Source: a virus
Reading direction: 5' to 3' (one strand)
IMG/VR virus record: IMGVR_UViG_3300050029_000197
Location: 1-64,000 of that record
DNA: 64,000 nt
Of this stretch, positions 6,513 through 51,691 are shown one piece after another. The translations under genes and the position numbers were made by a program. How positions within the stretch are numbered: the stretch's first letter is position 1; each line of letters begins with the position of its first letter. The notes beneath the pieces are model-generated. The model ran no database searches and was not told the origin of the DNA. It worked only from the letters and a program-made list of their open reading frames with translations.

Positions 6513-6534
6513 TAAACCACACGCGTGTGGTGCG
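6513..6534 (-). promoter_or_regulatory. Family B palindromic promoter/operator, copy 1
   Basis: Contains the perfect palindrome CCACACGCGTGTGG (6517-6530) followed on the minus strand by GTTTAGG. It belongs to a six-copy family whose other members sit directly before start codons. Here it precedes tRNA-Pro. Confidence 0.7.
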
Positions 6535-6591
6535 CAACGACAGTCGCGAACTACCTCGCAGCGCGCGCACGAATCGCGCGGACGGCGCGCA

Positions 6592-7029
6592 TCAGTCGAC
6601 GTCGGGATGTGCGACGCGAACGAGGCTCTCGGCCACCCGCGTCAACGCGTTCAGCGCGTTGCCGAGGTGGGTCAGGTGCGATTCGGTCAGCCGGTCCAAC
6701 GCGATCCCCCATAGCGCGTGCCCAACAGCAACGACGATCTCGCGCTCGGCATCATGCAGCCGCTCGAGGAGGTCGTCATCGCCTGTCTCCCCGGCATCGC
6801 CGTAGGCCATCAGCGTGACGTACCGCACCTCATGCGCCGCACTGACCAAGGTCCCCGCCTTATCGGCCCGGTAGTGGCGGCTGTCGTGGTCGCCGATCCG
6901 ACAGACCATGTCCGCGACGTCGTAGAGCGGGCTCACGATCGACCGTTCCGCGTAGTTCTCGGCCTCGTCAAGCTCGTGGAGCTGCTCACGGAGGTAGGTG
7001 CGGGCAGCGTCGAGCGGTGAAGTGGTCAT
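6592..7029 (-). CDS. Hypothetical helical protein, 145 aa
   Basis: The start is ATG at 7029 (MTTSPLDAARTYL), overlapping the upstream TGA. The protein is predicted almost wholly alpha-helical (YLREQLHELDEAENYAER, LLERLHDAEREIVVAVGHAL, HLTHLGNALNALTRV), like a four-helix bundle. No catalytic motif is seen. It is the last gene before the tRNA-Pro unit. Confidence 0.75.
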   Translation of the reverse strand: MTTSPLDAARTYLREQLHELDEAENYAERSIVSPLYDVADMVCRIGDHDSRHYRADKAGTLVSAAHEVRYVTLMAYGDAGETGDDDLLERLHDAEREIVVAVGHALWGIALDRLTESHLTHLGNALNALTRVAESLVRVAHPDVD

Positions 7030-7289
7030 GGGAGCAACTCCTCTTCGGTGATCTCGTAGCTCCGATAGGTCAGGCCAGGAACGACGCCGGCCAGATCGCG
7101 CGCGATGATCGAGTCGGCATACACCTCCAGCTCCCACTCTGCCGTGTGGTTCTTGGAGTGCATCTTCTCGATCGCCGCGAGCGCACCGTCGAACGAGCGG
7201 CACGCGGCCAGAGTGCGCGGACCGTCGTATTCGTTCTCGCGCACCATGAACACACGCTCGCGCTCGTCGTCCGGGTCCCAGCCGCTCAT
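7026..7289 (-). CDS. Hypothetical protein, 87 aa
   Basis: Acidic, with FMVRENEYDGPRTLAACRSFDGALAAIEKMH resembling a small alpha/beta domain, then EWELEVYADSIIARDLAG. Not recognised. ATGA-type overlaps on both sides make it a genuine operon member. Confidence 0.75.
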   Translation of the reverse strand: MSGWDPDDERERVFMVRENEYDGPRTLAACRSFDGALAAIEKMHSKNHTAEWELEVYADSIIARDLAGVVPGLTYRSYEITEEELLP

Positions 7290-7663
7290 GGCCGCATCGG
7301 TCCGATCGCTATGACGGTCTCGTGGGTTTCCGGGTCATGCCACGTCTCGAGCTTCGTGCGCTGGTCGACCTTGATCGCTGTCGCGTCCGAGATCCGCATG
7401 ACCATCCGGCCCTGCTCGTCGAGCTCACCCTTGTCGACGAGCAGCATCCCGATCGTCATTTTGGCGTCGCGCCGCTCGCGCGCATAGCGATCGTGGTCCT
7501 CGACGAACGCGAGGAGTGCCCTCGCGTCCACCGCCACCTTCATCGGTCGATCCAGTACGGCCTCAGGCCAGTCAGCCGTCGCGGTTCGCCAGCGGTCTTC
7601 GAGAAGCCTGCGCGCCTCCTGGGCGATTGCCTCGCTCGTTGCTCGGTCGTCGGCGTCGCTCAT
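7286..7663 (-). CDS. Hypothetical protein, 125 aa
   Basis: ATG at 7663 overlaps the stop of the DUF488 gene (TGATG). An N-terminal helix (IAQEARRLLEDRW) leads into a domain with MKVAVDARALLAFVEDHD and a beta-rich C-terminus (TIGMLLVDKGELDEQGRMVM). The family is not identified. Confidence 0.75.
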   Translation of the reverse strand: MSDADDRATSEAIAQEARRLLEDRWRTATADWPEAVLDRPMKVAVDARALLAFVEDHDRYARERRDAKMTIGMLLVDKGELDEQGRMVMRISDATAIKVDQRTKLETWHDPETHETVIAIGPMRP

Positions 7664-8100
7664 CAGAAGAGTCTCGTCTCCGCCGGCGTCTCGCGCTCGG
7701 GCATCGGCCGGTAGGTGTGCTCGCAGGACAGCTCGCGCACGTCGATCCCCCACCGCTCGTGGAGCCACTGGGCGGCGAACTCGCGGTGGCAGAGATCCTT
7801 GCGGACGTCCTCGAAGCAGAGGCAGACGATGGTTTGCCCTGGGTACTTCTCCGCGACGCCGAGGAGTTGCGCCTCGATCGCGTCCGCGAGCCCGTCGAGC
7901 CGCGCGATGTATCGCGCGGCGAACTCGTCCGGGTCGGCGATCTTGAGCAGGCCGTACGGGGCCAGCTTCGAGCCCGACTCACAGGCAATGTTGCGGATGA
8001 GCCCGACCGTCGTTCGCAGCGGCACCCCGTACTCGTTCTTGAATGCTCGGATCGAACACGTTGCGATTTTCACGTCGTGAATGTCCATAGGTCCCATCAT
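7663..8100 (-). CDS. DUF488-family protein
   Basis: It starts MMGPMDIHDVKIATCSIR; either of two adjacent ATGs could be used. The N-terminal DVKIATCSIRAFKNEYG and the C-terminal QTIVCLCFEDVRKDLCHREF-AAQWL segment match the DUF488 family, whose hallmark is a Cys/Glu-rich strand followed by CHR. The family is widespread in bacteria and phages, often near DNA-modification or defence genes, and its chemistry is unknown. It lies between the third ParB gene and small accessory genes. Confidence 0.8.
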   Translation of the reverse strand: MMGPMDIHDVKIATCSIRAFKNEYGVPLRTTVGLIRNIACESGSKLAPYGLLKIADPDEFAARYIARLDGLADAIEAQLLGVAEKYPGQTIVCLCFEDVRKDLCHREFAAQWLHERWGIDVRELSCEHTYRPMPERETPAETRLF

Positions 8101-8101
8101 G

Positions 8102-8902
8102 TCAAGCTGCTGCCCCAACCCGCTCGGCGGCGAGGATCGCGCGGACCCGGTTGCGGTGCGTGTGATCGGCGTCGCCGACGACGAACGCTTCGAGCAGGCC
8201 GAGCAGCTCGGACCGGCCGACACGTTTCGCCTTGCGGGCGTCGTCGATCAGCTCGGCCACCAAGAATGCGGAGGCGTCGAACATCCCGTCTGCGTTCTGT
8301 TCGGCCGCCAGCTTGTCGCACGCCCGGCGCGCCGAGTACCAGTCGAGCCCGCCCGACAGGATCGCCTGCGCGGCGAGCACCTGACGGTTCGTGTCCAGCC
8401 CGCGGAGCATGTCCGCGAATCCGACCGTCAACGTGCCCGCCGAGACCAAGGCCCGGATCTCGGGCGCGAGGTCGAGGAGGGCGGTGCGGCGGTCGATCGT
8501 CGCCATGCTCACTCCGACCGCGTCGGCGAGCTGCTCGCGCGAGACCCCGGCGTCGAGACGCTTGCGGTAGGCGGCGCCCTCCTCGATCGGGTCCAGATCC
8601 ACCCGGCCCACGTTCTCGGCCAGCATCACGGCCTGAGCCGCGTCGTCGTCGAGTGGCCGCACGAACGCCTCGATCTCGACCAGGCCGGCGAGCCGACAGG
8701 CTCGGACGCGCCGCTCCCCCGCCACCAGTTCGTATCTTGATACGGCATTCCGGATTCCCGATTCTCGAACCGTCGGCGGCTGCACCAGGCCGATCTCGCG
8801 GATGCTCTTCGCCAACTTGTCGAGCTCATCGTCGCGGAACGTCTGACGGTCATTGTCGCCCGCGACGATCGCGTCGAGGCGAACCGTGCGCAGCGCGCTC
8901 AC
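8102..8902 (-). CDS. ParB-family protein 3
   Basis: The start is GTG at 8902 (VSALRTVRLDAIVAG), overlapping the stop of the gene upstream. This is the most canonical of the three ParB copies: NDRQTF, LAKSIREIGLVQPPTVR, YELVAGERRVRACRLAG with the GERR box, AENVGRVDLDPIEEGAAY, then the HTH REQLADAVGVSMATIDRRTA. The C-terminus is helical. It has 266 residues. No ParA is present in the window. Confidence 0.9.
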   Translation of the reverse strand: MSALRTVRLDAIVAGDNDRQTFRDDELDKLAKSIREIGLVQPPTVRESGIRNAVSRYELVAGERRVRACRLAGLVEIEAFVRPLDDDAAQAVMLAENVGRVDLDPIEEGAAYRKRLDAGVSREQLADAVGVSMATIDRRTALLDLAPEIRALVSAGTLTVGFADMLRGLDTNRQVLAAQAILSGGLDWYSARRACDKLAAEQNADGMFDASAFLVAELIDDARKAKRVGRSELLGLLEAFVVGDADHTHRNRVRAILAAERVGAAA

Positions 8903-9129
8903 TCCCCCACCACCGCGACCGTGCGCTGCCGGAGCTGCGCTGCTGCTCGGTCGGCTTCGTGGATCGCTCCCCGATCGCCCGAGGACACGAACCCACCGCC
9001 CAGATCCCGCACCTCCCAGGTGCCACGCCCCTCCGTGTCGAGCGAGACGTTCACGACGTAGCCGATATGCGCGCCGTCGTCGACGATCCCCTGCCACCGG
9101 GGTCGGGTCGTCGCCTGGAGCACGATCAC
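8899..9129 (-). CDS. Hypothetical small beta-rich protein, 76 aa
   Basis: GTG at 9129 overlaps the upstream TGA. Sequence VIVLQATTRPRWQGIVDDG continues as WEVRDLGGGFVSSGDRGAIHEADRAAAQLRQ, resembling a DUF2188/WGR-like strand-strand-helix fold, but this is only a resemblance. Not recognised. Confidence 0.7.
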   Translation of the reverse strand: MIVLQATTRPRWQGIVDDGAHIGYVVNVSLDTEGRGTWEVRDLGGGFVSSGDRGAIHEADRAAAQLRQRTVAVVGE

Positions 9130-9305
9130 GCGAACACCACCAGCGGGGCGACCCAGATCGGCTGCGGACCGTTCGGGATGACCGCGGCCCGCACGTAGGA
9201 GACCCACGTCGCCTCGTCGACCACGCCGGCCTTGTACGCCGCCCGGACCTCGAAGTAGGCGTCGGTGGCCGGATTCGGGATGATGGTGGCGAGCAGGGCG
9301 ATCAT
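9126..9305 (-). CDS. Hypothetical small protein, 59 aa
   Basis: ATG at 9305 (MIALLATIIPNPATDAYFEV) overlaps the stop of the gene upstream. It has a short helical centre and a hydrophobic tail (PIWVAPLVVFA). Function unknown. The overlap at both ends argues that it is translated. Confidence 0.65.
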   Translation of the reverse strand: MIALLATIIPNPATDAYFEVRAAYKAGVVDEATWVSYVRAAVIPNGPQPIWVAPLVVFA

Positions 9306-9544
9306 GACGCCACCCGGACGAGGTCGCCGTGCCAGAAGCCGTTCGGCGCCCAACGGAACACGCCGTCGGCGAGGCGCAGCTCCATGCCGGCGAGCCACTC
9401 GACGACGTCGGCGAAGTGAAGGAAATCGGTGTGCTCGCCCCAAGGGCCGCAGATGCCGGCGCGCACGCTCCGGTACACGAGGGCGTCGAAGCGGTATCCG
9501 GGCTTCGGGGTGATGCACACCTCGTAGGTGACGTCGGCGCTCAT
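9302..9544 (-). CDS. Hypothetical protein, 80 aa
   Basis: Begins MSADVTYEVCITPKPGYRF. It is rich in aromatic residues with alternating strands (FRWAPNGFWHGDLVRV). Not recognised. The ATG overlaps the stop of the small gene upstream. Confidence 0.7.
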   Translation of the reverse strand: MSADVTYEVCITPKPGYRFDALVYRSVRAGICGPWGEHTDFLHFADVVEWLAGMELRLADGVFRWAPNGFWHGDLVRVAS

Positions 9545-9675
9545 CGGGTGTACCCGTTGGTCTGCGCCGCTTCCATTGCATCGCCGTGGGTCGCACCGCA
9601 GCCGGTCGCCTCGTAGTAAAGGCTCTGCTGCTCGGACGTCAGGGCGTCGAACTCGGCTTGCTGGCGTGCCTTTAT
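9541..9675 (-). CDS. Small protein gene with apparent AUA start, 44 aa
   Basis: The frame reads IKARQQAEFDALTSEQQSL and continues to a TGA at 9541 that overlaps the next ATG, so it behaves as a true operon member. No ATG, GTG or TTG precedes the conserved region. A strong GGGAGG lies exactly 8 nt before ATA at 9675, the same spacing as the GGGAGG-ATG at 31936 behind the related promoter. The helical body with one Cys is not recognised. A downstream CTG, or no translation, is the alternative. Confidence 0.5.
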   Translation of the reverse strand: MKARQQAEFDALTSEQQSLYYEATGCGATHGDAMEAAQTNGYTR

Positions 9676-9706
9676 GACTGCTACCTCCCTACCCAAGTCC
9701 CTCTTG

Positions 9707-9745
9707 GGTATAGGATAACTATACCACGCCAGCTAGGGGAAGCAA
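9707..9745 (-). promoter_or_regulatory. Family A promoter/operator
   Basis: On the minus strand TTGCTT (9745-9740), 16 bp, TATAGT (9723-9718). The -10 lies inside the inverted repeat GGTATAG-TTATC-CTATACC (9707-9725). It is followed by GAGGGAC and the GGGAGG ribosome site of the next gene. Confidence 0.8.
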
Positions 9746-9759
9746 GGAGAATGACGCGG

Positions 9760-9788
9760 GAAAGGCGCCCCCGTACCGAGGCGCCTCT
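9760..9788 (-). terminator. Intrinsic terminator
   Basis: Minus-strand hairpin AGGCGCC / GGCGCCT with a 10-nt loop followed by TTT. It lies downstream of the 9947-10213 gene and just before the next family A promoter, as expected for an operon boundary. Confidence 0.6.
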
Positions 9789-10294: not shown

Positions 10295-10302
10295 ACTATA
10301 CC
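10295..10302 (-). promoter_or_regulatory. Family A half-site with TATAGT -10
   Basis: GGTATAGT (minus strand 10302-10295) directly before the leader ATG at 10290. The second half of the operator is missing. Confidence 0.5.
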
Positions 10303-10823
10303 CCGCGGGTGTTCTGATGGGTGTTCGACGACAGCTCGACCCGTTCGTTCCTGGCGCGTCTCCCCCATCGGCGGCGCGGTTTCGGTGCTTCGATGATCGT
10401 CGGTCGGGGCGCTTCGAGCATCCGGAGTGCGGTGCGGAGGTCGGTGAGCGCGTTCTGACGTTCGATCGCGAGCGCCTGATACAGGTCGCGCTCCGCGCGC
10501 GCCCGCGCCAGGTCCACGCGCTGGGTCTCGACCTCGGCTCGAAGATTCTCGTCGGGGTCTTGGGCGCGCTCCCCCATCGCGGGCGCGTCCGGCTCCGGAT
10601 GCTGGATCTTGTGCGGATGCAGGCCGGCGCCGAGAAGGTCGTCGATCGGGATGACCCACGTCCCGCCACCCTGGCCTCTCGGGCCTTCGAGCTGGCGGGC
10701 GTTCGGGAACGTGCCCGCATCGAGGCGACGTCTGATCGTGATCCGTGCGACACCGCACGCCTCGGCCGCGGCGGTCAGGGTGAGCTCGGGCCGGCGGACC
10801 TGTTGGTCCTCGTCTGGTTGCAT
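10296..10823 (-). CDS. HTH (excise/MerR-like) DNA-binding protein
   Basis: The start is ATG at 10823 (MQPDEDQQVRRPELTLT). Residues 12-70 read TAAAEACGVARITIRRRLDAGTFPNARQ...TWVIPIDDLLGAGL, the layout of helix-turn-helix excise/MerR-type proteins where a wing (GGTWVIP) follows. The rest is a long coiled coil (NLRAEVETQRVDLARARAERDL) and a basic tail. This plasmid-replication/TetR-like layout suggests a dimeric DNA-binding protein. A TTGTGG-17-TGTAAG promoter lies 30-60 nt upstream. Confidence 0.75.
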   Translation of the reverse strand: MQPDEDQQVRRPELTLTAAAEACGVARITIRRRLDAGTFPNARQLEGPRGQGGGTWVIPIDDLLGAGLHPHKIQHPEPDAPAMGERAQDPDENLRAEVETQRVDLARARAERDLYQALAIERQNALTDLRTALRMLEAPRPTIIEAPKPRRRWGRRARNERVELSSNTHQNTRGV

Positions 10824-12280: not shown

Positions 12281-12565
12281 TCAGGCCGCCAGCCACTCCA
12301 CGTAGTGCTCACCCCAAATCGCGAGCGGATGCACCCCCAACTTCACGGCGATCCGATCAGCCCACCGCAACGGGATCCGGCCCGACGTCCGCCAACGGAC
12401 CACCGTGCGATCCGAACAGCCAGCCAGGTCGGCGAAGTCCTGACGGTGATACGGCCACTCGCGCGAGCTCATCCCGCGGCCGCCGGTACCGACCTGCTCA
12501 CAGAAGTGGGGGCCGAGGAACCGTTCGAGCGGCTCGAGCGGGAGCTCGAAATCGTTGACGGTCAC
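12281..12565 (-). CDS. Helix-turn-helix protein, 94 aa
   Basis: GTG at 12565 overlaps the TGA of the replication-type gene upstream. Residues 40-85 read RQDFADLAGCSDRTVVRWRT and PLRWADRIAVKLGVHPLAIWG, a helix-turn-helix with a following helix as in XRE-type or actinophage repressor-like proteins. The short N-terminus contains LPLEPLERFLGPHF. Likely a DNA-binding accessory factor of the wHTH protein it is coupled to. Confidence 0.75.
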   Translation of the reverse strand: MTVNDFELPLEPLERFLGPHFCEQVGTGGRGMSSREWPYHRQDFADLAGCSDRTVVRWRTSGRIPLRWADRIAVKLGVHPLAIWGEHYVEWLAA

Positions 12566-13272
12566 GACGACACCAGCATCGGCGGTGGGGGAGGGGACCC
12601 GGCGTCGGTCCACTCGCGGTGGGTCATGCCGTGCAGCGTCCAGGGTGGGGGAGTGGGGTCGGCCGTGTCGCGCTCTCGGGTGGTGCAATCACACGCGCGG
12701 TCGACGACGCTGGCGACCATCTTGCCGAGCTCGTCGAGGCCGGTACCGCGGCCGGGAATCGTGCCTCCGCCCTGGCACTGCGGGCAGTCGGGGTCCGGGT
12801 CTCCTGTGGAAAACTCCGCGGTCTTGTTCTGCTTGGGCTCTTCTTGAGTTCGGGTCGCGTGGCGCGACCCCTTTGGTCGCGTGGTGCCAGAGGAGGGGTC
12901 GCGTGATGACACCCCTCGGTTCGAGAAGGGGGTCGCGTAGTGCGACTCCTCCTCCTCGTCGTCCACAGGCATTCCCTTACGCCCGCGCGGGTCGTAATGG
13001 ATCGGGACCGCGGGAAAGAGCATCCGGTATCGGGTCGTGCTACCTCGGCGCTCTTCGAGGACCTCGAGATATCCATCCTTGACAAGCGACTGCAGCGCGC
13101 GCCGGGCCGATGCTTCGCTGCAACGTGCCTTGCGAGCGAGTTTCTCGACCGACGACCAGAGCTCGTAACGATGCTGCTCGTTGGCGGAGTCGCCGAGAGC
13201 GCAGTGAACCTGAAAAGTCGTGCCGTCGAAAGCCGAGTAGGAGAACACCCAGCCGATCGCATCGCTACTCAA
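12562..13272 (-). CDS. Winged-helix replication-initiator-type protein
   Basis: The start is TTG at 13272 (LSSDAIGWVFSYSAFDG), 7 nt after GGAGG. Residues 5-95 form an HTH_36-like winged helix: ELWSSVEKLARKARCSEASARRALQSLVKDGYLEV. An acidic/Ser-rich linker follows, then a zinc-type CPQCQGGGTIPG...CDC motif resembling a DnaJ-like CxxCxGxG knuckle. Many actinophages carry this architecture next to SSB as a replisome organiser; that role is inferred, and no helicase is nearby. Confidence 0.75.
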   Translation of the reverse strand: MSSDAIGWVFSYSAFDGTTFQVHCALGDSANEQHRYELWSSVEKLARKARCSEASARRALQSLVKDGYLEVLEERRGSTTRYRMLFPAVPIHYDPRGRKGMPVDDEEEESHYATPFSNRGVSSRDPSSGTTRPKGSRHATRTQEEPKQNKTAEFSTGDPDPDCPQCQGGGTIPGRGTGLDELGKMVASVVDRACDCTTRERDTADPTPPPWTLHGMTHREWTDAGSPPPPPMLVSS

Positions 13273-13478: not shown

Positions 13479-13491
13479 GTGTGGTCTATCT
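13479..13491 (-). promoter_or_regulatory. Family B half-site
   Basis: CGTGTGGTCTATC on the plus strand is identical to the right half of the portal-gene copy at 41561-41573. The remaining 13273-13508 interval upstream of the replication-type gene holds CG-rich inverted repeats and no gene. Confidence 0.35.
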
Positions 13492-14329: not shown

Positions 14330-14357
14330 TTGACGCCTGTCCGTGGTCGCGTACACT
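14330..14357 (+). promoter_or_regulatory. Sigma70-type promoter of the MerR-like regulator
   Basis: TTGACG (14330-14335), 16 bp, TACACT (14352-14357), then 7 nt to the GTG start at 14365, so the transcript should be leaderless. Confidence 0.8.
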
Positions 14358-28615: not shown

Positions 28616-29047
28616 CTATTGCGCTACCGCGGCTGACTGCCACAGTCGGAACCGCGCCCCGACGAGATACCGAGCGAACTCGGCCTTTTCGTTGGGCCGC
28701 CACAACGGGCCGAGTGTGACGTCGCCTCCGTTGCATGCCACCCCGGGAGCGAACCGTTGTCCGCTCACGAGGTTCACCACGGCCGAAGCGATACGCCATG
28801 CGATCGCGGCCGCAGATTTCTTGTTACGCCCGTAGGCGTCGAACTGGATGACCGGCATCGTCTGACCCCGAATGTCGGAGTCGACACCCGCGTCGATGAG
28901 ATGGATCGCGACGAACTCGCGGGGGATCTGCTCCCCGCGCGGGAGGCCGATGAACACCTTCCCCGACGCGAGTGGCCCAAGGTCGAGGGTCTGCGCCCAC
29001 TTCGCCGCGGCCCAGTCCGCGTCGACAAGCTGCAGCAGGTCGGGCAT
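28616..29047 (-). CDS. Tail terminator-type protein
   Basis: The ATG at 29047 overlaps the upstream stop (TGATG). MPDLLQLVDADWAAAKWAQT, GQTMPVIQFDAYGRNKKSAA and ARYLVGARFRLWQSA resemble the gp17/DUF3168 tail-completion fold, in which a strand-rich core follows an N-terminal helix. 143 residues, directly after the HK97 gp10-like gene, the standard order. Confidence 0.75.
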   Translation of the reverse strand: MPDLLQLVDADWAAAKWAQTLDLGPLASGKVFIGLPRGEQIPREFVAIHLIDAGVDSDIRGQTMPVIQFDAYGRNKKSAAAIAWRIASAVVNLVSGQRFAPGVACNGGDVTLGPLWRPNEKAEFARYLVGARFRLWQSAAVAQ

Positions 29048-29346
29048 CAGCCGGCCGCCGCCGCGAGCGCGGGCCGAAGGTACGGCTGCGGGGCCATGAA
29101 CCGCGTGCCGAACTCGACATAGCCCGCGTACTCGACGTTTGACCCGACGAGCGCGTACGCGCCTTCGGCGTCGACACCCATCTCGTGGTCGATCGACGCG
29201 CGGAGGCGGCCGGTGTCGACCGGGCAAAGTTGCGTCGCGCGGTTCTGCACGCGGAGCGCGGCCCGTTCGAGCTCAAGTGCGACGGGCCCGTCGATCCTGA
29301 CCGCGAGCGCCATGACGGCGAGCTGGTCGATATGGACGGCAGGCAC
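29047..29346 (-). CDS. HK97 gp10-like tail completion protein
   Basis: The start is set at GTG 29346 (VPAVHIDQLAV), 12 nt past the GTGTGG of a family B palindrome, as in the 50561 gene. Downstream ATGs would cut into the domain. The signature ATQLCPVDTGRLRASIDHEM is the A(x)P-x-DTG-x-LRxS box of the HK97-gp10 family, with GYVEFGTRFMAPQPYLRPAL at the end. It joins tail tube to head connectors. Confidence 0.85.
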   Translation of the reverse strand: MPAVHIDQLAVMALAVRIDGPVALELERAALRVQNRATQLCPVDTGRLRASIDHEMGVDAEGAYALVGSNVEYAGYVEFGTRFMAPQPYLRPALAAAAG

Positions 29347-29354
29347 GGCGCCAG

Positions 29355-29376
29355 CAAACCACACGCATGTCGTTTG
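29355..29376 (-). promoter_or_regulatory. Family B palindromic promoter, copy 2 (tail operon)
   Basis: Imperfect 22-bp palindrome with core ACACGCATGT. On the minus strand it ends GTGTGGTTTGCT, and the GTG start of the tail operon's first gene follows. Confidence 0.75.
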
Positions 29377-29398
29377 CGGGGGGACAGACGGGGCGCGG

Positions 29399-29442
29399 AA
29401 CGGCCCGCCGGGGCGGCTGTGAGGCTTTAGCGGCGGGCCGTT
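29399..29442 (-). terminator. Terminator-like hairpin between accessory and tail genes
   Basis: Perfect 11-bp inverted repeat AACGGCCCGCC / GGCGGGCCGTT with a 22-nt loop. A second repeat, CGATCGGAG / CTCCGATCG, lies at 29461-29492. They separate the accessory block from the tail promoter; no T-tract. Confidence 0.5.
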
Positions 29443-29534
29443 CGTGCTGCAAGGACCCGGCGATCGGAGTATGCGGAGTCGGCCTCCGATCGACCAGGCT
29501 CAGACGATCGTACGCGCGCCCTGAGACAACACCG

Positions 29535-33915: not shown

Positions 33916-34899
33916 CTATTGCACGAGCCCGGAGAAGAAGACGCCGAGGTCGGGGGCGACGACGCGCATGTCGTACGCGGTGCGGGCCTCGAACACGTCG
34001 GAGTGCTCCTGCTCCTCACGGAACCGTTCCACCGCCGCGGGCGATGATGCGCCCTCGCCGAGGAGGCCGGTCCATGCGAACACGTACCCGGCGGACGGCA
34101 CTTCGAGCCCGGGCTCTGGCGCGGCGTACACGAGCAGCGCGTTCTTCGGGCCGACGATGAAGTCCGACGTGTACGCCTGGCCCTCTTCGGATGTCGTGTT
34201 GATCGCGGTCGCGACCCGGACCGAGTCGACCGCGAAGTATTCGGCGGCCTTGCCGAGGTCCATCGACAGGGCACCCTGGGTGTATTTCACGCGGTCGATG
34301 AAGTCCGGGTGCTGGATCAGGGCCTGCTCGACGTCCGAACCGAGGATGAGGCAGTTCGCGCCGTATCCGGTGAGCTTCGTCATCCCGCGCGACCGGCTGC
34401 GGATCGTCTTCGACGGCAACGACGTCCCGAGGTTCCAGAACACGTCGTGCGTCGCGTCGGTCAACGTCGCGTGGCCGGCGATGTCGGTCGTCCAGACGCC
34501 GGTCTTCATGAACGAGGACACGAACCGCTTGTCCCGGTGGATCATGTGCTGACCCATGATGAGCCGGATCTTGGCGCGTTCGCCGTCGTAGCCGGGCGAC
34601 CAGTTCGCCCGTTCCGAGTCGTCGATCGCCGCGGACAGGCCCTCTTCGGTGCACGCGTAGCTGGCGGTCGTGAGGTCGTGACCGGTGCGCGGCGAACGGC
34701 CTCGCAGCGGGCGGGGGCCGACGTCGTCGCGGTAGAACGCGTCGCGCGGGTACACCCAGTAGATGTCGGTCTTGTGATTGACCGGCACCGTCGGGAACGC
34801 GCCCGGTGCGACGAACGCCGAGTCCTGTTGCATGTACGCAACAGAGATGGTCGTCAGCAGCGCATCGATGTGGCCCTGGTTGGCTGTCGGCTGGGGCAT
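33916..34899 (-). CDS. Major capsid protein
   Basis: 327 residues starting MPQPTANQGHIDALLTTIS with GGAGG 8 nt upstream. AFPTVPVNHKTDIYWVYPRD, RAKIRLIMGQHMIHRDKRFV, GYGANCLILGSDVEQALIQH and the closing RTAYDMRVVAPDLGVFFSGL follow the phage HK97-fold capsid family common in actinophages. It lies downstream of the scaffold and decoration genes. Confidence 0.9.
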   Translation of the reverse strand: MPQPTANQGHIDALLTTISVAYMQQDSAFVAPGAFPTVPVNHKTDIYWVYPRDAFYRDDVGPRPLRGRSPRTGHDLTTASYACTEEGLSAAIDDSERANWSPGYDGERAKIRLIMGQHMIHRDKRFVSSFMKTGVWTTDIAGHATLTDATHDVFWNLGTSLPSKTIRSRSRGMTKLTGYGANCLILGSDVEQALIQHPDFIDRVKYTQGALSMDLGKAAEYFAVDSVRVATAINTTSEEGQAYTSDFIVGPKNALLVYAAPEPGLEVPSAGYVFAWTGLLGEGASSPAAVERFREEQEHSDVFEARTAYDMRVVAPDLGVFFSGLVQ

Positions 34900-34943: not shown

Positions 34944-35315
34944 TCAGACGATGCCGCGGTACTGGAGCAGAACTGGGATGACCGAACCTGCGTTCGCGCA
35001 TCCCTTTTCGCAGATCCCGACGATTGCGTGGCCGGTCGTCGCGGCGGTGATCGCGTGGCCGGATCCGTCGATCTGCACTTCGGCGCCGGTCGCGACCGCC
35101 GCACCGGCGATGACCTTCGCGGTGTCGCGGATCTGCACGGTGCCGACCGCACCCGAGCGCGGGTCGTCGATCATGACGCCGATGGCCTTGCCGCCGGCGG
35201 CCGTGTGCAGGGAGATCGTGCCGTCGGACGCGAGGTCCATGAAGCACATGATGTTCGCGTGCTGGTCGCCGTTCGTGGGGTAGGCCCGCGTAGGGCCGTC
35301 CTGCCAGAAACTCAT
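34944..35315 (-). CDS. Capsid decoration protein
   Basis: The ATG at 35315 (MSFWQDGPTRAYPTNGDQHA) overlaps the scaffold stop. 123 residues, beta-rich, with GGKAIGVMIDDPRSGAVGTV, QIRDTAKVIAGAAVATGAEV and GHAIVGICEKGCANAGSVIP, like DUF2190-type decoration proteins. Immediately precedes the capsid gene in transcription order. Confidence 0.8.
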   Translation of the reverse strand: MSFWQDGPTRAYPTNGDQHANIMCFMDLASDGTISLHTAAGGKAIGVMIDDPRSGAVGTVQIRDTAKVIAGAAVATGAEVQIDGSGHAITAATTGHAIVGICEKGCANAGSVIPVLLQYRGIV

Positions 35316-36103
35316 CGGCCGTTCTCCTTGTCGTACTCGGCCTTGAGGGCCGGATTGGCCTGGATCGCCTTGTCGACCGCGACCTCGGGTGTGATCGTCG
35401 GGTCCGCGGCACGGATGTCGTCGGCGGCCTTTTGGATCTGCGCCCACGCGCCGCCGACGGCGATGTCACCGGAGCCGTGGACCTTGAACGCGTCGGACTT
35501 CACTGCGACCGCCTCCGCGGAACGGAGCACCCGCTCGAGCTCGGCGAACTGCTCCGGCTCGAGCGCGTCCCACGCGGCGCGCAGCACCGGCGCGAACGCC
35601 TTCGGGGTGACACCGATGTTGGTGAAGTCGGACTTGACGACGTCGACCCACTCGCCGTCGATGCGCCGCGACTCTTCGGCCTTCGCGACCCGCTCGGCCT
35701 CTTCGGCCCGCTTGCCCGTCTCCTCCGCCGTCTTCTGCACGGCGGCGAAGTGGGCGCGCAGTTCGGGATCGAGGGTCTCCATCGCCTTCGCGACCGCCTC
35801 TGGAGTGCCCGGCGCGGGCGCGCTGCCCGCGGCCTTCTCGGCGCGGAGCGTCTCGAGCTCGGCGGTCAAGGTGACGAGGTCGGCCTCGGCCTTCTCGGCG
35901 CGCTGTTCCGCGGTGGGCGTGTCGGTCGCGGTCGTCACGATTGCCTCCTCGACGGGGGTGCCGTCTGCCTTTTGTATGGCCCAGCCGTCGACTCCGTCGG
36001 CGCCGAGCTGCTCACGATTCGCGGCGCGACGCACGCCCGCAACGCCGGTCTGCCGAAGCGCAGACATGCGCCGGGGGGCCGCCTTGGTGGTCGTCGCCGT
36101 CAT
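35312..36103 (-). CDS. Scaffolding protein
   Basis: 263 residues. A central coiled coil (AEQRAEKAEADLVTLTAELE and KTAEETGKRAEEAERVAKAE) is flanked by Ala-rich regions and a C-terminal helical domain (FAELERVLRSAEAVAVKSDA). The ATG is 14 nt past the GTGTGG of a family B palindrome with no ribosome site, so it is probably read from a leaderless mRNA. Position between protease and decoration genes fits. Confidence 0.8.
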   Translation of the reverse strand: MTATTTKAAPRRMSALRQTGVAGVRRAANREQLGADGVDGWAIQKADGTPVEEAIVTTATDTPTAEQRAEKAEADLVTLTAELETLRAEKAAGSAPAPGTPEAVAKAMETLDPELRAHFAAVQKTAEETGKRAEEAERVAKAEESRRIDGEWVDVVKSDFTNIGVTPKAFAPVLRAAWDALEPEQFAELERVLRSAEAVAVKSDAFKVHGSGDIAVGGAWAQIQKAADDIRAADPTITPEVAVDKAIQANPALKAEYDKENGR

Positions 36104-36113
36104 CGAGCGGTAT

Positions 36114-36135
36114 CAAACCACACGCGTGTCGTTTA
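36114..36135 (-). promoter_or_regulatory. Family B palindromic promoter, copy 3 (scaffold-capsid)
   Basis: Palindrome with core ACACGCGTGT; the minus strand reads GTGTGGTTTGATACC and then ATG at 36103. Confidence 0.75.
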
Positions 36136-39138: not shown

Positions 39139-40026
39139 CTACAGACCGACCGCCTGGATGACGTCCTCCGCGGCCGCGACGATCCCCTCCTCGGCATCGC
39201 GCACGATGCGGGCCACCTCGGCGCGGAACCGGTCGAGCGGACTCGGCCCGGGCGTCGGTGACGGAGCGGGCTGCGGTGCGGGCGCGGGTGGCGTCACCGG
39301 TCCAGGCGCGGGTGTCGGCGTCACCGTCGCGTGCGGGAGCGCCTGCAAGTCCGCGAGCAGCGCCGCGAACGCGACGTCGCCCATGTCGTCCTTCGTGACG
39401 ATCGCCCACGCCTCTTCGACGCACGCCTGTTCCCATGTCCAGTCCGCCTCCTGGAGCGCGCCCCACGTGACGACGGTGCCGTACCCGTTCGCGCCCGTGG
39501 GCTGCTGTTGGCCCACCTTGAGAATCGCGTGCCCCTCGGCCGGGTCCGGCTGCTCGCCGTTCGCGACCGTCCACGGTTGTCCGGCGTTGAACAGCGCGTT
39601 GGCGTCGTCGGTCAGGTTCACGCCGAGGATCACCCCGCGGCCCAACTGGCCCATCACCGCGTCGACGGTGCCGAGCTCGACCGGGGCGAACCCTTCGATC
39701 TCCCCGTTGTGGAACAGGTACAGCAGGAAGTCGGCGAGGTTCACGCCGACGTCCTGGCCGTGGTCGTACGTCTGGTACAAGCCAACCGTCTCCGCGGTCG
39801 TCGGGGTCGCGCCCGCGAGCATCCGGTCATGCTCGTACGCGGCGACGCCGCAGTCGCCGAAAACATCGTTGCCGAGCATGCCGAAATCGGTGATGCCCTT
39901 CGAGACGTCGATCGGATATGCGGGCACAGGAGCCGCGGCGTACTCGTGCAGCCAGCGGATCGCGTACCGCTCCCCGACCGGCTTGATCGGGAGCCGTCCG
40001 CGGAGTCCTGCGATGCGTTCGGTCAT
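39139..40026 (-). CDS. Papain-like cysteine peptidase-type protein
   Basis: 295 residues. FGMLGNDVFGDCGVAAYEHD carries the nucleophile Cys in a GDC box, and DPAEGHAILKVGQQ the likely catalytic His, with WEQACVEEAWAIVTKDD downstream. The same GNDxxGDC box occurs in a family of bacterial and phage C1-like proteins. A Pro-rich linker and an amphipathic helix (FRAEVARIVRDAEEGIVAAA) end the protein. Located between portal and MuF, so it may act on virion proteins or be ejected. Confidence 0.7.
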   Translation of the reverse strand: MTERIAGLRGRLPIKPVGERYAIRWLHEYAAAPVPAYPIDVSKGITDFGMLGNDVFGDCGVAAYEHDRMLAGATPTTAETVGLYQTYDHGQDVGVNLADFLLYLFHNGEIEGFAPVELGTVDAVMGQLGRGVILGVNLTDDANALFNAGQPWTVANGEQPDPAEGHAILKVGQQQPTGANGYGTVVTWGALQEADWTWEQACVEEAWAIVTKDDMGDVAFAALLADLQALPHATVTPTPAPGPVTPPAPAPQPAPSPTPGPSPLDRFRAEVARIVRDAEEGIVAAAEDVIQAVGL

Positions 40027-41546
40027 GGTGCTCCTCCGGTCGTGACGTTCTGCGCGTTCGCGTCGTCGGGCGCGTTCGGATCCTGGCCGCCCTGGTTCAT
40101 CTTCCCGAGCTCGGCGAGCTGCGCGTTGACCCGGTTCGTTACCTCGGTCTCGACGAGCAGGTCCTGCGCGCCTTTCTCCTCCGCGCTCATGTGCGGCGCG
40201 TCGAGCTGATCGAGCAGCCAGTCCGACAGTTGCGGATCAGGGAACACGTCAACGCCCGCCTGCGACAGCTTCACGATCGCGTCGAACAGCTTCGTGATGT
40301 CAACCTCTTGCACCGTGTCATGCTCGAGCGTCGGTGTCAGCTCGACCGGCCAGCCGTTCAACTCGACCAGTTCGCGGTAGCCGTTGTCGGTGACTTCGGT
40401 GCCGACCATCGTGAGGTTCGCGTCGAGCGACGCGGAGAACAGTTCGACGCGGGTGGTGCCCATCGAGAAGCCGAGCGAGCCGACACCTTGCGCGCCGAGG
40501 AGGAGGAAGTCGGCGAGACCGTTCAACAAGATTCGATGATCGAGCCGTTCAATCACCTTCGTCGTGTCGAACTGGCGTTGGCCGCCGGTGGTGAGGAGCT
40601 CGAACTTGAAACGGTTGTTGCCTTTCTCGTTCTCGTCGTACGGCAACATCATCCCGTCCGCCTCGTTACGACGGACGTTCTTCACCGCCTCCCGCAACGT
40701 GTTCGCGAGCGCCTTGTAACTCTCGGCGGCGTCAGGCGCGAGGTATTCGGGGGGGAGCCACATGACCGGCAGACCGACGAGGTCGCGTTCAATGCCGACC
40801 GCTTCGATGTCCTCAATACGCCGTTTCTGCAGCCATGGCCTCCACGCGCCCCGCAACATGGAACGGCCAAGCGGGTTGTCTTTGAGTGCGCTGGTTCGGA
40901 AGTGGAGCAGTTTCGCCATTGGGATCGACACCGCGGCGTGGGTGAGCGTCCGCTGATTCGCTCCGACGAGCCGTTCGTTCGACGCGGTGCGCTGGTAGTC
41001 CCACCGCCAGATGGTGTCCTGCGCGCGGATCGGGAGGTTCTCCCACCCGATCTTGCCGTCGTCGTACTTGCTCTTCGGCTGCCCGAACGGTTGCGCGTCG
41101 GTCGGCGGGCCGCCCTTGGGACCGAGGCGCCGCTTGTAGACCTTCTCGAACAGTCCGAAGCCGAACTGGCGGGTGGTGCCGATCGACGACTGCGTGTCAG
41201 GCCACGTGTCGAGCATGTCGCCGCGGCATGAGTCACAGTGGTCGGCGATCTCAGCCGCGAGGCGCGAGTCGTCCGCCGGCGTCGTCCGCCATGACACTTG
41301 CCGTTCGAGAAGCTCGATCGCCAACAGCATCGCCGAGGTGGTCGCGTCGTTGTCGCCCATCTCGCGGAACACGCGCCCGGCGAGCGGCCACGAAAGCTGC
41401 TGGAGGAACTCTTCTTGGATGAACCCGCCGAACTGGCGGAGACCGGTCGAACCGATCTCGATGCCGATCGAGCCGGGGTCGGTGAGGATGTCGTCGAGTT
41501 GCACGCGCAGCGGGGAGGCTGCACCGTTGCTGTTGACGACGGTCAC
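40023..41546 (-). CDS. Portal protein
   Basis: 507 residues starting GTG 41546 (VTVVNSNGAASPLRVQLDD). LSWPLAGRVFREMGDNDATT, SAMLLAIELLERQVSWRTTP, PIRAQDTIWRWDYQRTASNE and AGVDVFPDPQLSDWLLDQLD match DUF935-type portals. No ribosome site; the start follows a family B palindrome. First gene of the head module. Confidence 0.9.
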   Translation of the reverse strand: MTVVNSNGAASPLRVQLDDILTDPGSIGIEIGSTGLRQFGGFIQEEFLQQLSWPLAGRVFREMGDNDATTSAMLLAIELLERQVSWRTTPADDSRLAAEIADHCDSCRGDMLDTWPDTQSSIGTTRQFGFGLFEKVYKRRLGPKGGPPTDAQPFGQPKSKYDDGKIGWENLPIRAQDTIWRWDYQRTASNERLVGANQRTLTHAAVSIPMAKLLHFRTSALKDNPLGRSMLRGAWRPWLQKRRIEDIEAVGIERDLVGLPVMWLPPEYLAPDAAESYKALANTLREAVKNVRRNEADGMMLPYDENEKGNNRFKFELLTTGGQRQFDTTKVIERLDHRILLNGLADFLLLGAQGVGSLGFSMGTTRVELFSASLDANLTMVGTEVTDNGYRELVELNGWPVELTPTLEHDTVQEVDITKLFDAIVKLSQAGVDVFPDPQLSDWLLDQLDAPHMSAEEKGAQDLLVETEVTNRVNAQLAELGKMNQGGQDPNAPDDANAQNVTTGGAP

Positions 41547-41551
41547 CCGGT

Positions 41552-41573
41552 CAAACTACACGCGTGTGGTCTA
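41552..41573 (-). promoter_or_regulatory. Family B palindromic promoter, copy 4 (portal/head operon)
   Basis: Core ACACGCGTGT; the minus strand reads GTGTAGTTTGACCGG and then the GTG start of the portal gene. Confidence 0.75.
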
Positions 41574-47994: not shown

Positions 47995-48004
47995 GGCAAA
48001 GCTC

Positions 48005-48283: not shown

Positions 48284-48304
48284 GGGACGACGTTCTCCTT
48301 CTGA

Positions 48305-48469: not shown

Positions 48470-48471
48470 GG

Positions 48472-48870
48472 TTACCTCGTTGCGTAGATGATGAAGCTGA
48501 TGATCGACGCGGCGGCAACTACCCAGCCAAGAATGTCCGCACGTCCGAGGGACCGCCCACCCGTAATCGTCTGCTTGTCCTCGATCGCCTTGATACGCGC
48601 GTCGGTTCGAGCGGCATCATCCTTGGCGGTCGACAGGGCTTCCTGTCGGGCCTTCTCCGCCGCTGCAAACGCCGCATCAAGAGTGGTGGTCTGTGTCTTG
48701 AACCGCTCGTCAAGAAGCCGTATGTCGCCCTGGCGTGCCATCTTCTCGTACGCCTCGTGATCGGCGAATCGACGCTCCATGAACAGCTTGAAGTCGGCGA
48801 TCGACTGATCGAGGCGTTCGGACAGCTGCGGAATGTTCCAGGCCGGCGGTTCACCGTTCGGTATCGCCAT
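48472..48870 (-). CDS. Coiled-coil protein with C-terminal membrane anchor
   Basis: 132 residues. A long helical part (LSERLDQSIADFKLFMERRF, TLDAAFAAAEKARQEALSTA) ends in one membrane span (ILGWVVAAASIISFIIYATR). The layout resembles tail-anchored holin-associated or gp-type lysis accessory proteins. Confidence 0.75.
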   Translation of the reverse strand: MAIPNGEPPAWNIPQLSERLDQSIADFKLFMERRFADHEAYEKMARQGDIRLLDERFKTQTTTLDAAFAAAEKARQEALSTAKDDAARTDARIKAIEDKQTITGGRSLGRADILGWVVAAASIISFIIYATR

Positions 48871-48874
48871 CAGC

Positions 48875-49822
48875 TCAGGCGAGGATCGCGGTGACGTTCA
48901 CCGATGGCATCGGCATCCCCGGCCGCCAGTTCGGCGCGTCGACCGTCACCACGACATGATTCCCCCGCGCCTGCGCGCGCGGGGTCGCGCCGATCGAGCC
49001 CGGCCAGTAATCGTCCGGGCTCGACGGGTCCGCCTGGTGCGGGTCCGGGCCGTGCATCGACACCTGACAGCCCGCAACCAGGCCGCCGGCGTCGTAGACG
49101 CCGAAGAACTGGCGCAACGCCTGGCCGGCCGACGAGACGTTGATGACGGCGTGCTTCGCGGTTCCCATGTCGAACGAGATCCCTCCGGTCTGCGGCACAG
49201 GTGCCGGCGACGGCTTCGGTGGTACAGGTGCGGTCGGCCGCGGGTATTGGCCCCAGTCGGCCTTCACGACCGTGTTCACGTCGTACGCGCCCGGCAGACC
49301 CGGGAGCTGCTGGCCGAAGTGCTGCACCAACACGGTGTGCACGGTCGGCGACTGATTGCCGGGAAACGACGTCGACTCCGACTCCCACCCGAACGTGACG
49401 GCGAGCGCCTCGAGCAGCGCACCCTCGCCATACGCTCCGCGCGCGTGGCCGCATTGCTCGTGGAAACCCTGTTCGTAGGCGACCGCCGTCGGGAAGTCGC
49501 CCGGCATGACTTCCTCGTCGAACGACGGGAACACCGGGATCTCCGCGCCGAGGCGGAGTTCGCGCATCGCCTGCGCGGCCGAGGAACCGTCGACCATGCC
49601 GGCGCCGTGTCCGCCGCGCCAGTCGCCCGGGTTCTTCTCGAAGTTGAACCCGACCGCGATACCCGCGCCGATCAGGCCGGCGAGCTCGCCGGGCGTGATT
49701 GCTTTCGGCCAACCCCACACTGCGGGGGCGATGTAGCGCATGACGCCGGTCACACCCGCGGCTTTGAGCGCCTGCGGGGACGGCGGCCGCCAATCCGAGT
49801 AGTCGAGAACGATGCCGGTCAC
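48875..49822 (-). CDS. Endolysin: DUF1906 (Rv2525c-like) glycoside hydrolase
   Basis: 315 residues. The N-terminal ~190 residues start MTGIVLDYSDWRPPSPQALK and include GVMRYIAPAVWGWPKAITPG, IAVGFNFEKNPGDW and FPSFDEEVMPGDFPTAVAYE, the TIM-barrel pattern of Rv2525c-like/DUF1906 hydrolases with an acidic active-site pair. A Pro-rich linker (APVPPKPSPAPVPQ) leads to a C-terminal beta-domain, probably wall binding. Lies in the lysis cassette. Confidence 0.88.
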   Translation of the reverse strand: MTGIVLDYSDWRPPSPQALKAAGVTGVMRYIAPAVWGWPKAITPGELAGLIGAGIAVGFNFEKNPGDWRGGHGAGMVDGSSAAQAMRELRLGAEIPVFPSFDEEVMPGDFPTAVAYEQGFHEQCGHARGAYGEGALLEALAVTFGWESESTSFPGNQSPTVHTVLVQHFGQQLPGLPGAYDVNTVVKADWGQYPRPTAPVPPKPSPAPVPQTGGISFDMGTAKHAVINVSSAGQALRQFFGVYDAGGLVAGCQVSMHGPDPHQADPSSPDDYWPGSIGATPRAQARGNHVVVTVDAPNWRPGMPMPSVNVTAILA

Positions 49823-50235
49823 TCGAGCGGCTCGCGCCCCGGGGGATCCACCACCTCGGCGGTTCCCGACTGCTCCTCGCCGTCTGCGCCTTGCTCGCCC
49901 ACGTCCGCATTGTCGTCGGGATCGATCAGACCGACCTCGGGCGCGAGCTCGTCGTCCGTCGCCAAGGCGCCGAACTCGGTCGACTCTTCACGCTGCACGA
50001 CGAGGATCCGGATCCAGGGTGCGTGCTCGTCGGTGCGGGCTGGATGCCATTCGACGGTGATCTCGACCGGGTCGGGAACCATGCCGGGCGACAAGAGCGC
50101 CGCGACCGCCTCCTTCACCGCGTTGACGCGGGCGTCGATGTCTTCGTCGCCGACGAACAGTTCGAGGAGCTGGCCGTCGACCGAGGCTTCGAGCTCGACC
50201 GCAACACCGGGACCGGCTGAGATTGTGCGGATCAC
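49819..50235 (-). CDS. Acidic hypothetical protein, 138 aa
   Basis: The ATG overlaps the stop upstream. MIRTISAGPGVAVELEASVD, ARVNAVKEAVAALLSPG then a very acidic C-terminus (DDELAPEVGLIDPDDNADVG). Not recognised; coupled to the lysin gene. Confidence 0.7.
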   Translation of the reverse strand: MIRTISAGPGVAVELEASVDGQLLELFVGDEDIDARVNAVKEAVAALLSPGMVPDPVEITVEWHPARTDEHAPWIRILVVQREESTEFGALATDDELAPEVGLIDPDDNADVGEQGADGEEQSGTAEVVDPPGREPLE

Positions 50236-50561
50236 GGGAGGTGCACCACGGCGACGGTCACGCTGGTGACGGCCGAGTATGCGATCGCGGCGTGTCCGGC
50301 ACCGTCGGCGTACCGGCCTGAGTCGAACGGGCCGGCTTCCTCTTCGGCGCCGGCAGCGACGGTTATCACGATGTCGTGATGGAACCCTTGCGAGCAGGGC
50401 ACGACCGACGTGACGGTCGCGGTGTGCGGGGCGGAGTCGCCGTTCTTGATCCGCAGGTGGCAGCCGTTGCCGGGAGCGAACGTGTCTCCCCCGCTGGCGG
50501 CGGCGGCGAACGTGACCGCGGTGCCTGCTGCGGTGACTTCTTGGGTGCTCAGGAGGGCCAT
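50232..50561 (-). CDS. Decoration-like small beta protein, 109 aa
   Basis: ATG at 50561 (MALLSTQEVTAAGTAVTFAA), 12 nt past the GTGTGG of a family B palindrome and without a ribosome site. GNGCHLRIKNGDSAPHTATV and SVTVAVVHLP give an all-beta protein like capsid decoration or head-fibre base proteins. It opens the lysin operon. Confidence 0.7.
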   Translation of the reverse strand: MALLSTQEVTAAGTAVTFAAAASGGDTFAPGNGCHLRIKNGDSAPHTATVTSVVPCSQGFHHDIVITVAAGAEEEAGPFDSGRYADGAGHAAIAYSAVTSVTVAVVHLP

Positions 50562-50569
50562 GGGCGCAT

Positions 50570-50591
50570 CAAACCACACGCATGTCGTTTG
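50570..50591 (-). promoter_or_regulatory. Family B palindromic promoter, copy 5
   Basis: Core ACACGCATGT; minus strand GTGTGGTTTGATGCGCCC then ATG at 50561. Spacing identical to copy 2. Confidence 0.75.
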
Positions 50592-50613
50592 CGGGTGGCA
50601 TAGGCAGATCGGC

Positions 50614-51660
50614 TCAGTGCCGCCAGGCTCGGATGTAGTCGACCAGTTCCTCAGCGTGCGTCGTACTCGACAACACGGTCGGCGCCCGCGACGGCCCGAG
50701 CACCACCTGATAGCTCACGATGTTCCAGGGGGCTGACGGATGACCGGCGACCGAGCACACCTTCACACCGTCCACGTACCAGGTAGTACCGGTCGGCTCG
50801 ATGTCGGAGCCATAGACGTGCAGGCCCGCGGTCGGGTCGAACGGCATCGTGTAGTGGCAGCCGCCACCCGACCCTGAGTGGGAGGTGAGATACAACTGGC
50901 TGTGGTTGTCGCCGTAGAACTCGAACGTGTCCGTCTCCTGCGACGCCCCACCTTGCGCCTGCCACGTCCACAAGGCGGGCTGGACGCCTGTCAGCGGTGA
51001 GAACTGGGCGCGCGTCTCGATGTAGCCGTATGTGAACGCTTGCTTCGACCCGAGCTGTGCCGAAGTCCAGGCCATGCCGTTCGGCGCGGTCTCACGTCGC
51101 GACTGGAACGTCGCGACCCCGTTCGCGAAACTCATGTTCTGGCCGTCGGTCTTGTAGTCGAGCTCACCGTTCCCCGAGTTGGACCGGCCACCGTCGCAGC
51201 ATTCCCAGCTACCCCACGTGTTCCACTTCGTGCGGTCGAGGGTCGTGCCGTTGAACTCGTCGCCGAACGTCTGCGTCCAGGCACCGGGAACGCCGAGGGG
51301 TGACACTCCGCCGGACACAACCGCGGTCGTGGTGGTCGGCGCGACGGTCGTGGTGGTTGCCTGCGTCGTCGTCGACGCGCTGGCTGTGGTGGTCGTCGCC
51401 AGGGCCGTTGTGCTCGTCGTCGTAGAGGCGAACGACTGTGCGCGGGCGAGATCGGCGTCCGCGGCCTGCGATTCCGTTGCTGCGTTCTGCGAATGCACGC
51501 GCGCGCTCGCGAGGCACGACGTCACGTCCGGGCACGTCGCGGTCGCCGCACCCGACGAGGTCGCGACCGCGAGGCCGACCGTGACAATGACGGCAGTCGC
51601 GAGCGCGACGAACGAACGCCGCTTCATCAGGGTGGGGGCACGATGACCGACTCTGGGCAT
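50614..51660 (-). CDS. Secreted GH16 glycoside hydrolase
   Basis: Start ATG 51660 (MPRVGHRAPTLMKRRSFVAL), 13 nt past a family B palindrome; ATG 51627 is the alternative. Signal peptide to ~40, a Thr-rich linker (STTTQATTTTVAPTTTTAVV) to ~115, then a GH16 domain with ETDTFE at 242-247 matching the E-x-D-x-x-E catalytic motif, preceded by YGYIETRAQFSPLTGVQPAL. It may cut beta-1,3/1,4-glucans or other surface polysaccharide. Export before lysis or virion release is implied. Confidence 0.9.
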   Translation of the reverse strand: MPRVGHRAPTLMKRRSFVALATAVIVTVGLAVATSSGAATATCPDVTSCLASARVHSQNAATESQAADADLARAQSFASTTTSTTALATTTTASASTTTQATTTTVAPTTTTAVVSGGVSPLGVPGAWTQTFGDEFNGTTLDRTKWNTWGSWECCDGGRSNSGNGELDYKTDGQNMSFANGVATFQSRRETAPNGMAWTSAQLGSKQAFTYGYIETRAQFSPLTGVQPALWTWQAQGGASQETDTFEFYGDNHSQLYLTSHSGSGGGCHYTMPFDPTAGLHVYGSDIEPTGTTWYVDGVKVCSVAGHPSAPWNIVSYQVVLGPSRAPTVLSSTTHAEELVDYIRAWRH

Positions 51661-51669
51661 GCCGACCAC

Positions 51670-51691
51670 GAAACCACACGCGTGTCGTTTG
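51670..51691 (-). promoter_or_regulatory. Family B palindromic promoter, copy 6
   Basis: Core ACACGCGTGT. Minus strand leads to the GH16 gene; on the plus strand a TATGCT box (51700-51705) follows and the tRNA begins 8 nt later, so the palindrome could serve both directions. Confidence 0.7.

Follow-up and report, generated by a model that had tools for sequence, protein, structure and literature searches.

The 65,530-base virus record IMGVR_UViG_3300050029_000197 was analyzed over its bases 1–64000 (the window), which have a G+C content of 68% and carry called genes nearly all on the minus strand. Five genes and one transfer RNA (tRNA) of the window are each preceded by a palindrome that matches the 20-base-pair (bp) sequence AAACNACAYGCRTGTNGTTT with no more than two mismatches, at positions 6513, 29355, 36114, 41552, 50570 and 51670 (Table 1). 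A first-pass annotation had placed six copies at these positions and described them as heading the portal, scaffold/capsid, tail, lysis-side and GH16 genes and tRNA-Pro, and the gene calls bear this out. It had also called the set a late regulon. That description fits five of the units, which hold virion or lysis genes; the unit behind the 6513 copy contains regulators (WhiB and ParB-like genes), so late expression is likely there rather than proven, and the unit may be regulatory. The 6513 copy is the weakest of the six, with a degenerate distal half. The tRNA-Pro next to it was missed by a whole-window Rfam scan and then confirmed with ARAGORN and Rfam RF00005; a Guanidine-III match at the same locus was rejected (17.8 bits against a cutoff of 36). 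The scaffold-like role of the protein behind the 36114 copy is one that we infer from position and composition. Because a tRNA-Met lies on the plus strand beside the 51670 copy, 21 bp beyond it, this copy might fire in both directions.

Table 1. Palindrome copies, adjacent features and promoter-like elements, with positions in the window except in the last line
Feature	Position	Strand	Remarks
Palindrome copy 1, CGCACCACACGCGTGTGGTTTA	6513..6534	-	11 nucleotides (nt) before tRNA-Pro, then DAM-like/GNAT, WhiB, ParB-like gene string
tRNA-Pro(UGG)	6429..6501	-	ARAGORN; Rfam RF00005, 46.6 bits
-10-like hexamer TAGGTT (TANNNT)	6509..6514	-	7 nt before tRNA-Pro 5' end
Palindrome copy 2, CAAACGACATGCGTGTGGTTTG	29355..29376	-	Heads tail operon
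Neck1/HK97-gp10-like protein, first tail-operon gene	29047..29346	-	GTG start 29346; tail genes next
-10-like hexamer TTTGCT	29353..29358	-	6 nt before GTG 29346
13-bp perfect inverted repeat	29398..29443	-	Lies shortly upstream of copy 2; terminator-like hairpin with no strong U run
Palindrome copy 3, TAAACGACACGCGTGTGGTTTG	36114..36135	-	Heads scaffold/capsid operon
Coiled-coil, scaffold-like protein	35312..36103	-	ATG 36103; directly upstream of head genes
-10-like hexamer TTTGAT	36112..36117	-	8 nt before ATG 36103
Major head protein	33916-34899	-	Downstream of scaffold-like gene
Palindrome copy 4, TAGACCACACGCGTGTAGTTTG	41552..41573	-	Heads portal operon
Portal protein (Mu-type)	40023..41546	-	GTG start 41546
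-10-like hexamer TAGTTT (TANNNT)	41553..41558	-	6 nt before GTG 41546
Palindrome copy 5, CAAACGACATGCGTGTGGTTTG	50570..50591	-	Heads tail-protein/endolysin/tail-fibre operon
Tail protein (phrog_16194)	50232..50561	-	ATG 50561; endolysin (48875-49822) after it
-10-like hexamer TTTGAT	50568..50573	-	6 nt before ATG 50561
Palindrome copy 6, CAAACGACACGCGTGTGGTTTC	51670..51691	-	Heads GH16 gene; also upstream of plus-strand tRNA-Met
GH16 glycosyl hydrolase	50614..51660	-	ATG 51660; alternative start 51627, choice uncertain
-10-like hexamer TTTCGT	51668..51673	-	7 nt before ATG 51660
tRNA-Met	51713-51788	+	Rfam, 56.9 bits; strand opposite to nearly all genes
TTGACG-N17-TACACT promoter, leaderless geometry, no palindrome	14330..14357	+	7 nt before GTG 14365
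Differing late-promoter region in contigs L145 and L146	L145 5362-5601; L146 694-933		Palindrome versus LexA/SOS box

With up to three mismatches allowed, the 20-bp motif gave 12 strand-hits, the six palindromes on both strands, against 0.08 expected from shuffled sequence, and a count of 12 was reached by none of 100 shuffles. The genome-wide motif search that the first-pass annotation had recommended yielded no additional copy anywhere in the 65,530-base record, and a control search of the record with the reversed pattern gave 0 matches. The core ACACGCRTGT alone, with one mismatch, gave 13 matches against 12.5 expected and is not significant; the significance of the family is carried by the full 20-mer, not by the short core. 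All six copies are non-coding throughout, a property of approximately 7% of window positions, and all six also have a feature start 5–13 nt downstream, a combination found at 0.47% of positions. Copies within genes, of which many would have refuted the annotation's reading, were absent from the entire record. The 22-bp elements end 5, 8, 8, 9 and 10 nt before the starts at 41546, 29346, 50561, 51660 and 36103, respectively, and 11 nt before the 5' end of tRNA-Pro, always in one orientation relative to the adjacent minus-strand feature. The distance from the closing GTTT to the start, previously given as 9–14 nt, measured 6–11 nt. A half-site at 13479 (GTGTGGTCTA) that had been counted with the family was removed from it because it is a plus-strand sequence that faces away from the genes on the minus strand and lacks a partner half; a similar half-site occurs at position 19.

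This placement bears on the idea that the palindromes are short mobile repeats inserted into intergenic space. Similar palindromes do occur in unrelated contigs, some of them within genes, but insertion does not account for six of six copies lying 5–11 nt before a start in a single orientation with none inside a gene of the window. The outside matches fit chance, terminators of AT-rich phages and coding coincidences: in a wider scan, similar palindromes arose as terminators and as DNA encoding ENDRYVVF, and a mobile palindrome suggested by in-gene matches in three contigs (L007, L043 and L018) was dropped because of its low copy number. We consider mobility the least probable of the explanations weighed here. 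Neither a mobile repeat nor a Rho-independent terminator agrees with the unremarkable folding of the copies, the lack of genic copies and the placement at starts.

When the copies were aligned in minus-strand orientation, strong conservation did not extend beyond the 20 columns of the palindrome. Most of the variation falls in the distal half, and the gene-proximal half (TGTRGTTT) hardly varies; this would be expected of a proximal half with an additional function, possibly as a -10 element. A -10-like hexamer that overlaps the proximal edge of the palindrome is located 6–8 nt before the start codon or tRNA end in every case. The 41552 palindrome is 3 nt closer to its start than the commonest spacing, and its hexamer, TAGTTT, arises from a G-to-A change and lies 3 nt farther upstream, which restores the 6-nt gap. 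No match to TTGAC-N16–20-TANNNT was present at any of the six copies, where no -35 element was recognizable; the sole match in the window (14330–14357) is at chance level (1 versus 0.8 expected) and is listed as an illustration. Shine-Dalgarno sequences were absent from all five palindrome-headed genes (pairing energies of -2.2, -2.2, +0.6, -2.2 and -2.2 kcal/mol), and pairing was stronger at 32 of 40 other listed starts, a set that includes the alternative GH16 start at 51627. The earlier statement that no ribosome site precedes these starts is thus confirmed, and the geometry, with a -10-like hexamer 6–8 nt upstream and no Shine-Dalgarno, is compatible with the leaderless transcripts that the annotation had proposed. 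In Mycobacterium tuberculosis, TANNNT is the dominant -10 element, no -35 consensus is seen and leaderless genes make up approximately one-quarter of those that have a primary start site (PMC3898074). The palindrome-headed units resemble such actinobacterial promoters in hexamer spacing and in the absent Shine-Dalgarno and differ in that TANNNT proper is found at two of the six.

A role at the RNA level, as a hairpin near the 5' end of the mRNA that acts as a processing site or in translational control, has little to recommend it and is almost as improbable as mobility. The 22-mers can fold, at -2.2 to -6.5 kcal/mol, but the folding z-scores of -0.1 to -1.6 are unremarkable, and five of the six copies keep a non-pairing position (G/G four times, C/A once). 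A purely translational role is excluded by the copy that serves a tRNA.

The palindrome is probably a regulator-binding control element shared by six promoters, five of them serving virion or lysis genes, a reading to which we assign a probability of roughly two in three. A symmetric dimeric DNA-binding protein would occupy approximately -31 to -10 relative to the start codon; it would cover the spacer and extend onto a weak -10 element (TTTGAT type) at its upstream edge. Transcription would begin on the start codon or tRNA 5' end itself or a few nucleotides away from it, the transcripts would be leaderless or nearly so, and the virion and lysis units would presumably be expressed late. The terminator-like repeat upstream of copy 2 and the palindrome family of Arthrobacter phage Laroye (below) also count in favor of this reading. 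The bound protein would probably activate, standing in for the -35 contact in the manner of PafBC or MerR-type proteins. Activation is favored over repression because a -35 element is recognizable at no copy and four of the six have a poor -10.

Two known systems are informative for activation. In mycobacteria, a -26 motif and sigma adaptation by PafBC replace the -35 contact (PMC11804915). The likeness lies in actinobacterial promoters without a -35 element and with an activator in the spacer (PMC11804915), and the difference in that PafBC is a heterodimeric host activator with an asymmetric motif. The palindromes would fall into this spacer-activated, PafBC/MerR-like class, judging from the six of six that end on a -10-like hexamer and from the lack of a good -35; for the MerR-type arrangement proper, a dyad in a spacer of 19–20 bp, the copies offer no -35 from which to measure. 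The second system is GIL01 (Tectiviridae), in which gp6 activates the weak late promoter P3 from the palindrome GaCACAC-GTGTGaC (PMC6182141). Here, too, a palindrome with a similar ACAC..GTGT core, presumably the site of a dimeric regulator, is found at probable late genes with weak promoter elements, but GIL01 has one such promoter, with its palindrome centered at -43.5, over the -35, as opposed to approximately -20 here. The exact gp6 motif is absent from the window.

Several points weigh against a shared control element. Hexamer scores of 5–6 were obtained at all six copies, and scores of at least 5 at 10 of the 86 remaining starts and at 11.6% of positions taken at random, but the TTT of the palindrome itself contributes to the score and makes this estimate generous, and only two of the six hexamers are true TANNNT. 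The start codons are our own calls. Megablast of the late region returned no cultured phage, no portal relative exceeds 46% identity or has the motif, and the MerR-like candidate regulator (10296–10823, see below) has no cultured-phage homolog.

The strongest rival is that the palindromes are repressor operators, where a phage or host repressor covers the spacer and the -10 and keeps the late genes silent until it is removed. We regard this as possible, though clearly less probable than activation. A position over the core promoter is typical of repressors, and autoregulation would be possible at the 6513 copy, since the genes behind it include WhiB and ParB-like ones. The promoter elements under the palindromes, with no -35, seem too weak to need repression, and no integrase or resolvase was found, so there is no sign of lysogeny. 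A further argument for repression comes from outside the window. An identical copy of the asymmetric 20-mer turned up in IMG/VR in another phage contig (L008/L145). It has the same orientation and lies, inside TTGCGG-N17-TTTACT, in the gap that precedes a terS-like gene, terL, portal and MuF. A sister contig, L146, shares 100% TerL identity with L145 and is identical downstream of the promoter, but has at the same slot TTGCAG-N17-TATCTT with CGAACAGATGTTTG in the spacer. That sequence is a perfect Gram-positive SOS box, equal to the boxes upstream of real lexA genes of Acidimicrobiia. The palindrome thus seems to take the place of an operator within a promoter spacer, and the pair is the best outside evidence for the palindrome as a putative regulator site in such a position. 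Because L146 has a known repressor operator in that slot, repression stays a serious rival. The pair also suggests that phages exchange operators like cassettes.

The regulator that binds the palindrome may be phage or host encoded. An operator for a host DNA-damage regulator, PafBC-like or other, which would make the late genes damage responsive, is unlikely. In its favor, a related palindrome (RAAYNACAYNNRTGTNRTTY) is found upstream of RecB-like nuclease orthologs in Acidimicrobiia, and TAAACGACACGCGTGTCGTTTA lies just upstream of one actinobacterial uvrA. However, the 14 matches in host genomes equal chance (approximately 15 by our own estimate), and the genomes checked have a single copy each and no regulon. 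The regulator is not LexA: no exact SOS box (CGAACRNRYGTTYG) occurs in the window, and the one-mismatch matches are not at palindromes. As a positive control, CGAACRNRYGTTYG boxes were recovered upstream of most Acidimicrobiia lexA genes. The motif of PafBC-dependent promoters is TTGTCRGTG-N8-TANNNT, which has no match in the window with one mismatch or fewer and two matches with two mismatches, neither at a palindrome. The host palindrome itself lies 40–60 nt upstream of a RecB-like PD-(D/E)XK nuclease in many Acidimicrobiia genomes (L228–L257), and several of these sites have TANNNT close by. LexA was excluded as its regulator because the lexA genes there carry CGAACRNRYGTTYG. This palindrome is real but only similar to the window family, and it counts as no more than a lead.

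Centromere-like sites for the phage ParB proteins are a further, and rather less probable, explanation. The phage encodes two proteins with ParB_N and HTH_ParB domains (2867–3619 and 8102–8902), and ParBs of the KorB/VirB type regulate transcription from palindromes. The family has no similarity to parS or the KorB OB site, though, and its members mark gene starts and do not cluster around parB; a search of the window for a 16-mer resembling TGTTTCACGTGAAACA (parS) found none within three mismatches. Besides the two ParB proteins with a helix-turn-helix (HTH), candidate regulators are WhiB (3616–4017), an HTH_36 protein and the MerR-like product of 10296–10823, which has a weak HTH_17 match (E 0.0024) and a possible coiled coil by eye; 12562–13272 is also listed among the candidates. 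In the fullest version of the activation reading, the phage itself would encode the dimer, which would switch six leaderless late promoters, one of them that of a tRNA, by binding a palindrome fused to the -10 and taking over the -35 contact of the host sigma factor. This version is tentative, and as a whole we hold it to be doubtful.

Other repeat families of actinobacteriophages were compared with the palindromes. The SAS of cluster K mycobacteriophages is a 13-bp asymmetric sequence, GGGATAGGAGCCC, that contains a Shine-Dalgarno (PMC3203893). SAS and ESAS are likewise short multi-copy repeats directly before actinobacteriophage gene starts, with inverted repeats thought to be protein bound (PMC3203893), whereas the window family is a 20-bp palindrome without Shine-Dalgarno; the window has no exact SAS and one match with one mismatch, inside tRNA-Met. 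Cluster A stoperators are asymmetric sites at which a monomeric repressor stops elongation (PMC9283540). Their occurrence as many repressor sites in one phage genome (PMC9283540) recalls the palindromes, but the window sites are near-perfect palindromes at gene starts, a difference that speaks against a stoperator assignment. LexA, parS, stoperator, SAS and mobile-repeat readings are all disfavored.

Relatives of the phage gave no second instance of the family. The motif was absent from all 15 portal-related virus records searched and from the closest cultured phages, Arthrobacter phages Laroye, Kovu and Kharcho and Microbacterium phage ValentiniPuff (32–39% identity), and BLAST of the palindrome against phage and plasmid collections returned nothing useful. 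Laroye, a distant relative with portal and capsid approximately 35% identical, has a palindrome family of its own that was undescribed (CCTAACCNNGGTTAGG, approximately 10 copies; L013, 1655–49223), and several copies sit exactly between a TTGAC -35 and a TANNNT -10. The two families are alike as multi-copy palindromes before genes that include portal and endolysin, with several Laroye copies in a promoter spacer; they differ in sequence, in the -35 and -10 elements of several Laroye copies and in that the Laroye genes are mostly leadered. No palindrome family was found in portal relatives besides that of Laroye, and an unfiltered search of them was swamped by GC-rich noise. At least seven copies of AAAACGACACRYGTGTCGTTTT occur in a phage of 36% G+C, IMGVR_UViG_3300028908_000019 (G006; L006, L037–L039), mostly right before a Shine-Dalgarno and ATG. 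A site common to the two phages was rejected because they share no proteins beyond noise, and the likeness is probably convergence; palindromes have half the freedom of other sequences. The window family is real, promoter associated and previously undescribed, new in sequence and known in kind.

Some other features of the phage were recorded. The terminase large subunit is split into two genes approximately 7 kb apart (51789–52424 and 59427–60311), with the ATPase part matching phrog_979 152–421 and the nuclease part 430–604, and the flanks of the two genes show no sign of an intein. In the 57997–59031 protein, a weak match to a DNA-polymerase clamp is joined to a clear FtsK gamma domain of the KOPS-binding type, and a HerA-like ATPase (55697–57406) is encoded close to it. 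Three ParB-like proteins lie in 1962–3619 and 8102–8902, two of them with a ParB HTH, and multiple ParB-like genes are also found in Laroye, Kharcho and Kovu.

Little is understood of how actinobacteriophages control their late genes. If the fullest version of the activation reading is true, then sigma adaptation would have a counterpart in a phage, and approximately 30 bp would hold the regulator site, the -10 and the start codon. If the palindrome is the shared control element proposed here, one 22-bp element would name the late regulon of an uncultured phage lineage. The element would then be a direct handle for fishing out its regulator, and it would suggest that compact leaderless late promoters can do without a -35.

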